Origin: Muribaculaceae bacterium
GTDB lineage: Bacteria > Bacteroidota > Bacteroidia > Bacteroidales > Muribaculaceae
Length of the DNA: 64,000 bases
Assembly (NCBI GenBank): GCA_023667015.1
Contig: JAMPAX010000001.1
Span: forward strand, 297,443-361,442
Direction: 5' to 3'
This document shows positions 75 to 4,075 of the stretch, one piece after another (position 1 is the first letter of the stretch; every line of letters starts with the position of its first letter). A program made the position numbers and the translations under genes. A model generated the notes under the pieces. That model was not told the origin of the DNA, made no database searches, and saw only the letters and a program-made list of their open reading frames with translations.

Positions 75-107
75 TTTGGAAGATAACTATAAAAAGCGTT
101 ATATTTG
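75..107 (+). promoter_or_regulatory. metK promoter, Bacteroidetes type
   Basis: TTTG at 75-78 and TATATTTG at 100-107 are separated by 21 bases, matching the Bacteroidetes sigma-ABfr consensus TTTG-N19-21-TAnnTTTG. Transcription should begin near 113, immediately ahead of the candidate riboswitch. Confidence 0.75.
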
Positions 108-120
108 CAGTCCGAAAAAA

Positions 121-245
121 GGTAGTGGAAAAATTTGGCTGCTTGCAACCACTTAAAAAAATGCTAAAACTGCACACGACGCCGGATTTCATAGCGAAGA
201 AGTCGGCAAGCGGTAGAGGCATTTCCCCGGGAGATGCCTTTTTTT
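121..245 (+). promoter_or_regulatory. Candidate SAM-II riboswitch plus intrinsic terminator, metK leader
   Basis: The leader begins with a 5-bp stem, AGTGG (124-128) with CCACT (149-153). The loop carries TTT (134-136) and TTGCAA (143-148), and the stem is followed by an A-rich stretch and GCTAAAA (163-169). This order and these motifs resemble the SAM-II aptamer (UUU..UUGCAA, then GCUAAAA). GCA (145-147) can pair with TGC (162-164) as a pseudoknot; the second pseudoknot helix is poor, with GCTG/CTGC leaving a U-U mismatch. Downstream, AGGCAT (217-222) pairs with ATGCCT (234-239) followed by seven T, an intrinsic terminator 59 bases before the metK start. Control by S-adenosylmethionine fits the gene, which makes that compound. 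Family assignment is from memory of the consensus. Confidence 0.55.
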
Positions 246-251
246 GTGGAG

Positions 252-278
252 CTCCTTAAACTCCTTAAACTCCTTAAA
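252..278. repeat. 9-bp tandem repeat, 3 copies
   Basis: Three exact copies of CTCCTTAAA lie between the terminator and the metK start. Read on the other strand the unit is TTTAAGGAG, related to the AAGGAATTT array after the foldase gene at 3946-4025. Confidence 0.85.
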
Positions 279-303
279 AACAACAACATCAAAACTAATA
301 ATA

Positions 304-1644
304 ATGAATTACTTATTCACATCAGAGTCTGTATCGGAAGGACATCCCGACAAAGTAGCAGACCGCATATCCGACGCATTGCTGGATGAATTTCTGGCAC
401 GCGATCCCAAAAGCCATGTGGCGATCGAAACCCTGTGTACGACAGGCCAAGTAGTAGTAGCCGGAGAGGTAACCTCCGATGCATACGTAGATATTCTCTC
501 TACAGTGCGCGACGTAATCAACGAAATTGGCTACAACAGAGGAGCCTATCGTTTTGACGGCGACTCATGTGGCGTAATCTCCGCAGTACATGAGCAGAGT
601 GCCGACATAGCTCGCGGAGTAAATCGCGATGACAACGGCGAAGACATAGACGCCGAAAAACAAGGAGCCGGCGACCAAGGGATGATGTTTGGCTACGCAG
701 TAGACGAAACCGAAGACTACATGCCTCTGACCCTGGCCTTAAGCCACATGCTGATGAGCGAACTCGCAGCCATCCGTCGCGAAGGAAAAGATATGACCTA
801 CTATCGCAAGGGGGTGCTCAAATCCTACCTGCGTCCCGATGCAAAGAGTCAGGTGACAGTAGAATACGACGAGAACCATCAGCCGGTAAGGATCGACACA
901 ATCGTAGTATCCACCCAGCATGACGAATTCATCGCACCGATGGACGACAGCGCTGCCGCACAAGAATCAGCCGACCGCGAGATGCTCAAGCAAATCCGCA
1001 AAGACGTAGAAGAAGTGCTCATTCCCCGGGTAAAAGCAAAACTTCCCGGGAAAATCCAATCCCTGTTCAAAGAAGACATGATTCTTCACGTCAACCCCAC
1101 AGGCAAATTCGTATTGGGAGGGCCACATGCAGACACCGGACTGACCGGCCGTAAGATAATCGTAGACACCTATGGAGGACGCGGAGCCCACGGCGGAGGC
1201 GCCTTCTCCGGCAAAGATCCCTCGAAGGTAGACCGCTCGGCAGCATATGCATGTCGGTGGATAGCCAAGAACCTGGTAGCCGCCGGTGTAGCCCGCGAGG
1301 CACTGGTACAGGTAGCTTATGCCATAGGTGTAGCAGAGCCGGTATCACTGTTTGTCAACACCTTTGGCACAGGCAAGACAGGACACAGCGATGCAGAGAT
1401 AGCCGAAAAATTAGGGAAGATATTCGACCTTCGTCCCCGCGCCATTGAACGTAGCTTAGGGCTACGTGAGCCAATCTACAAAGAGACCTCGGCCTACGGA
1501 CACATGGGACGCCGACCGCAGAAGGTGGTAAAACGGTTTGAAAACCGCTACGAAACCGGCCGACCGATAGAAAGAGAAGTAGAGCTATTCACATGGGAAA
1601 AACTCGATAAAGTCGACGAGATCAAGCGCGAGTTTATGAGTTGA
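304..1644 (+). CDS. metK: S-adenosylmethionine synthetase
   Basis: Makes S-adenosylmethionine from ATP and methionine in the cytoplasm, the cell's main methyl donor. The 446-residue product has GHPDK at residues 13-17, GAGDQG at 121-126 and the [14 protein letters not shown] phosphate-binding loop near 297-310, all hallmark MetK motifs. Length is slightly above the roughly 385-residue E. coli enzyme but usual for Bacteroidetes. The start at 304 is chosen because [17 protein letters not shown] is the family's normal N terminus; an in-frame start at 244 would put translated repeat sequence in front of it. It sits alone, behind a candidate SAM-responsive leader, and its last codons enter an ATGAGTTGATTAGTGGATGAG-like repetitive stretch. 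Confidence 0.97.
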
Positions 1645-3927: not shown

Positions 3928-3945
3928 ATTGCCAAGACCTAAAAA

Positions 3946-4025
3946 ACTTAAGGATCTTAAGGAATTTAAGGAACTTAAGGAATTTAAGGAACTTAAGGAA
4001 TTTAAGGAATTTAAGGAGCCTAAGG
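3946..4025. repeat. 9-bp tandem array, AAGGAAYTT-type units
   Basis: About nine imperfect copies of a 9-base unit (AAGGAATTT, AAGGAACTT, AAGGATCTT) lie between the converging foldase gene and trmD. It is related in sequence, on the opposite strand, to the repeat before metK. Confidence 0.9.
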
Positions 4026-4075
4026 ACACCTCAAGTCATCCGGTCTTCCACTGTTCAACTCTGCAACTCATCCAC

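Follow-up and report, generated by a model that had tools for sequence, protein, structure and literature searches.

SAM-II riboswitches acting on transcription have been described from proteobacteria. Corbino et al. (2005; PMC1273637) placed the SAM-II start site a few bases before the P1 stem and found many terminators behind the aptamer, and a 2007 study (PMC2258182) named terminators as the commonest SAM-II association in alpha- and beta-proteobacteria. More recently, Scheuer et al. (2022; PMC9373788) provided support for SAM-dependent termination at S. meliloti metZ, where a short RNA rises at high SAM. Transcriptional SAM-II platforms are thus not unusual, and an initial annotation of the locus studied here, which described the class as best known from proteobacteria acting on translation, needs correcting on this point. 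The Bacteroidetes carry a family of their own, SAM-II long loops (RF01726), catalogued by Weinberg et al. in 2010 (PMC2864571). We found no description of its expression platform or mechanism in the literature searched.

Here we analyze the metK leader within a 64-kb stretch of bacterial DNA (hereafter the window), whose nearest named relatives are Muribaculaceae. The analysis fixes the identity of the leader element and offers a base-by-base switching model for a family catalogued since 2010. Neither the aptamer, nor its metK target, nor control by a terminator is new. The novel part is the predicted expression platform, in which an antiterminator is built from the 3' strand of the aptamer pseudoknot and the 5' arm of the terminator. 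Taking the evidence together, we consider it likely that this long-loop SAM-II riboswitch is a transcriptional OFF switch for metK, working through competing antiterminator and terminator structures.

A long-loop SAM-II aptamer ahead of metK

Scanning with Rfam covariance models (cmscan) matched the leader to all 60 positions of RF01726 at 62.7 bits, with a gathering cut-off of 44 bits and an E-value of 1.1e-09 over the full 64 kb, far above chance. This is the sole RF01726 match across the genome. Besides three tRNAs, no other RNA family reached its cut-off in the window; MIR159, RAGATH-8 and similar weak Rfam matches fell below theirs and are attributed to chance. The stem, the loop with TTT and TTGCAA, the A-rich spacer and GCTAAAA, read from the letters by the initial annotation in SAM-II order ahead of metK, are all present within the match, and the gene itself is identified by TIGR01034 (Table 1). 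The model proposed there as a check, RF00521 (SAM_alpha), reaches 17.5 bits over the same leader, below its cut-off of 36, and is rejected as the correct model.

The window element shares with RF00521 (PMC1273637) the order of P1 and pseudoknot, the UUGCA and GCUAAA core, a start site just 5' of P1 and a terminator that often comes next. It differs in its low score and its loops, and in having a terminator 5' arm that is complementary to the 3' strand of the aptamer itself. From RF01726 (PMC2864571) the window aptamer shows no difference, being alike in sequence and structure over the 60 model positions, in host phylum and in the SAM-cycle gene downstream. By sequence, then, the metK leader element is a SAM-II riboswitch aptamer of the Bacteroidetes long-loop family, and it presumably binds SAM.

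Table 1. Features of the metK leader, in window positions
Feature	Position	Strand	Basis
TTTG, candidate -33 promoter element	75..78	+	direct reading; weak alone
TAnnTTTG -7 promoter element (TATATTTG)	100..107	+	direct reading; ends 17 nt before P1
SAM-II (long loops) aptamer	119..177	+	RF01726, 62.7 bits, E 3.4e-11 (on 2 kb)
P1 5' strand AGTGG (partner 149-153)	124..128	+	3 of 5 pairs changed on both sides, 136 relatives
Pseudoknot 5' strand: P2a GCUG 138-141, P2b UUGCA 143-147	138..147	+	P2a outer pairs covary; P2b invariant
P1 3' strand CCACT	149..153	+	P1 covariation, 136 relatives
Predicted antiterminator 5' strand: AAAUGCU 159-165, ACUGC 169-173; overlaps pseudoknot 3' strand	159..173	+	MFE, pair probability, duplex energy
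Pseudoknot 3' strand: P2b UGCUA 162-166, P2a CUGC 170-173	162..173	+	alignment of relatives
Hairpin within antiterminator loop (GCCG-ATTTC / GAAGT-CGGC)	181..207	+	predicted in antiterminator and SAM-like folds
Predicted antiterminator 3' strand: GCGGU 210-214, GGCAUUU 218-224 (the latter within terminator 5' arm)	210..224	+	folding; genus motif count
Intrinsic terminator: stem 216-226/230-240, U tract 239-245	216..245	+	-15 kcal/mol hairpin, seven T
metK, methionine adenosyltransferase (start codon ATG at 304)	304..1644	+	TIGR01034, 478 bits (cut-off 309)

Compensatory change across 136 distinct aptamers from relatives bears out the fold. The proportion of paired cells was 96.6% in P1, 69.7% in P2a, where three pairs had changes on both sides, and 100% in the invariant P2b; the covariation in P1 and P2a is what the initial annotation had proposed looking for in related metK leaders. 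Overall, 89.4% of cells were paired, compared with 84.6% in column shuffles, none of 500 of which reached the real value, a comparison inflated by relatedness. Sliding the partner strands is the better guide, and it left at most 57% of cells paired.

One pseudoknot helix had been flagged as imperfect, and so it is: U140.U171 is mismatched in the window. Of the 136 relatives, 104 likewise have a non-standard pair here. Around this position most sequences set GCUGC opposite A[C/U][C/U]GC, whereas a U-A pair is usual in members of other families that read GAUUGA or GACUGA. The mismatch is therefore real, but the divergent subclass read into it falls away, the element being the curated RF01726 with a mismatch common to most relatives.

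The element is widespread: it occurs in 34 of 41 genomes of the same genus, 144 of 149 of the same family and 91 of an order-wide sample of 119. In 90 of the 91 loci first read it lies ahead of metK; in the remaining one no metK start was found in the stretch examined. Named flavobacteria, Porphyromonas, Tannerella and other Bacteroidales also carry it 5' of metK. The window element shares with RF01726 the linkage to a methionine/SAM gene in Bacteroidetes, here metK. A chance resemblance, with no SAM-binding RNA in the leader, is extremely improbable in view of the score, the sole match in the genome and the retention of the element across the family with compensatory changes. It is contradicted by both tests that the initial annotation had set, a covariance-model match and conserved pairing.

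The aptamer also sits where transcription would begin. A TAnnTTTG element fitting the Bacteroidetes -33/-7 promoter consensus, as quoted in PMC7366714, precedes P1 in the window and in 127 of 142 metK leaders of relatives. From its position, transcription likely starts about 10 bases before P1, in agreement with the earlier placement of the aptamer a few bases from the predicted start. In three same-genus leaders (L127, L129, L144) the aptamer closely follows the end of a tRNA-Pro (CGG) gene, and no TAnnTTTG was found near the aptamer; in these, tRNA and riboswitch may share one transcript, with tRNA processing making the riboswitch 5' end. About 150 bases before the window begins there is a tRNA-Phe gene (L001, 1153-1228) on the metK strand; a run of masked letters (N) comes after it.

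A predicted antiterminator that borrows the aptamer

The intrinsic terminator seen by the initial annotation lies between aptamer and metK. Its idea of transcriptional control through a terminator platform gains support from this hairpin together with a predicted antiterminator that excludes it. The antiterminator has 12 pairs, joining AAAUGCU to GGCAUUU and ACUGC to GCGGU. It is the minimum-free-energy fold for transcripts ending at 224-234, with a mean pair probability of about 0.97, and from transcript end 238 the predicted fold switches to the terminator. When P1 was imposed and the pseudoknot strands were blocked, the terminator alone formed. In silico, terminator and antiterminator are mutually exclusive, and the antiterminator uses aptamer sequence. 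Because one of its strands is the 3' strand of the pseudoknot and the other includes the 5' arm of the terminator, the antiterminator is incompatible with both structures.

These folds suggest the following model. At low SAM, the pseudoknot 3' strand (159-173) would pair with 210-224, withholding the 5' arm of the terminator, and metK would be transcribed. At high SAM, 162-173 would be held in the pseudoknot and the antiterminator blocked; the terminator hairpin (216-240) would then form, RNA polymerase would stop at 239-245 and metK would be off. Both the direction of the switch and termination in the cell are thus predictions of the model. The S. meliloti metZ riboswitch (PMC9373788) resembles it in description, as a SAM-II element with predicted SAM-dependent termination; it differs in its gene and its phylum.

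Without SAM, the full terminator is more stable at equilibrium than the antiterminator (-39.9 versus -34.1), which requires a kinetic ON state. Since the pseudoknot is beyond what nested folding can score, ligand energetics lie outside our claims. In the window itself, the significance of the antiterminator depends on the method: its duplex energy gave p = 0.010 against dinucleotide shuffles when an internal loop was allowed, while a longest-complement test without internal loops was non-significant (p = 0.17). The genus-wide motif count is firmer evidence.

Complementarity conserved across the genus

We tested motifs and duplexes in 28 same-genus leaders. The hexamer [A/G]GCATT, complementary to aptamer AAUGC[U/C], occurs in 19 of them, whereas dinucleotide shuffles gave 3.8 +- 1.8 leaders and at most 9 in 300 runs. 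Either RGCATT or RRGCAG was present in 24 of the 28 (6.9 +- 2.1 shuffled); four control motifs, reverse-sense included, showed no enrichment in the same leaders. Terminator loops vary widely among these genomes while GCATT is kept. Within the window, RGCATT occurs in one of 19 terminator-like hairpins, that of the metK leader. Duplex energies point the same way, with p = 0.003 in each of L032 and L035, p < 0.05 singly in only 4 of the 28 leaders, and a combined p of 5.5e-6 that is optimistic because the leaders are related.

Individual leaders show how the pairing is kept. L035 can form an unbroken 13-pair antiterminator (CAGTTTTGGCATT). In L144 the aptamer has ATCGC in place of ACTGC, and a downstream CGATTTT restores pairing. 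In L147 the terminator 3' arm, AATGCTAAATTTTTT, repeats the aptamer core. The arrangement of the window recurs in a cultured relative, Muribaculaceae bacterium Isolate-037 (L151). In L131, L138 and L143 the terminator 5' arm carries AAGCAG or AGGCAG, complementary to CUGCUU in the pseudoknot's other strand. An alternative solution using that strand is put forward as no more than a suggestion, since the enrichment of RRGCAG by itself is mild (8 leaders versus 3.7 expected). The genus also has exceptions: some leaders carry the complementary element just upstream of the terminator, some lack it and some have RRGCAG.

These data bear on a rival account, in which a genuine aptamer is followed by a terminator that acts constitutively and does no more than keep basal metK expression low, with SAM acting otherwise, for instance on RNA stability. 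It has a precedent in the S. meliloti metA terminator, which follows a SAM-II aptamer and is not predicted to respond to SAM (PMC9373788), and it would fit the greater equilibrium stability of the window terminator. Against it, the pseudoknot-strand complement occurs in the 5' arm far above chance in the genus even though the loops differ, and other terminators of the window lack it. We regard this account as unlikely and favor the antiterminator switch.

Different output devices under one aptamer

The aptamer is ordinary for its group; the switching part differs strikingly among relatives. Judged from their leaders, the family has at least three platforms behind the one aptamer ahead of metK: a terminator, sequestration of the start codon, and a start codon abutting the aptamer. 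The sequestor type comprises 22 leaders from 7 or more genera (L004, L011, L017, L023, L029 and others) with GC[A/G]TTTTTCCAC upstream of TTGGAAA-ATG. The T-rich part of this segment can pair with aptamer AAAAAATGCTAAA, forming 10-13 pairs in many loci, and has an alternative partner in TTGGAAAAATG at the metK start. Folding of five examples with the aptamer blocked lowered the mean unpaired probability of the start-codon region in every case: it came to 0.01 in three examples, to 0.11 in another and, in the last, only to 0.40, down from 0.63. In the 12 leaders of the abutting type, no more than about 50 bases separate the start codon from the UUGCA core, and some of these start codons follow GCTAAA directly.

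Might the window leader, too, act mainly on translation, as in these other genera, its terminator adding little? Sequestration and abutting start codons elsewhere in the family speak for it. In the window, however, the start codon lies 131 bases past the aptamer core, within an A-rich, unstructured stretch that has no complement to GCATTTTTCCAC. Translational control is thus more doubtful still than a constitutive terminator, and transcriptional switching remains our preferred reading.

On a partial MetK tree the platform types cluster, with at least 7 changes among the three clear types; the backbone is weakly supported, and we therefore claim only clustering and some turnover. We lean slightly toward the view that the Muribaculaceae-type family has repeatedly exchanged the switching device under a fixed SAM-II aptamer and metK, using terminators with a 5' arm complementary to either pseudoknot strand, a sequestor in which UUUAGCAUUUUUCCAC has the aptamer and UUGGAAAAAUG as alternative partners, and abutting starts. 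If true, this repeated exchange would offer a natural series in which the evolution of riboswitch platforms could be studied. With many related metK leaders, a constant aptamer and a changing output device, platform evolution could become directly testable.

Two further observations concern the sequence downstream of the aptamer. Between terminator and metK start, the window has a perfect 9-base tandem repeat in three copies (CTCCTTAAA, 252-278), to which a nine-copy array (AACTTAAGG, 3945-4026) is related. Among other Bacteroidales and flavobacteria (L092-L121, L159-L228), many metK leaders carry CAATC and TTTCC segments that appear complementary to aptamer GATTG and GGAAA and often stand before an ATGGGA start.
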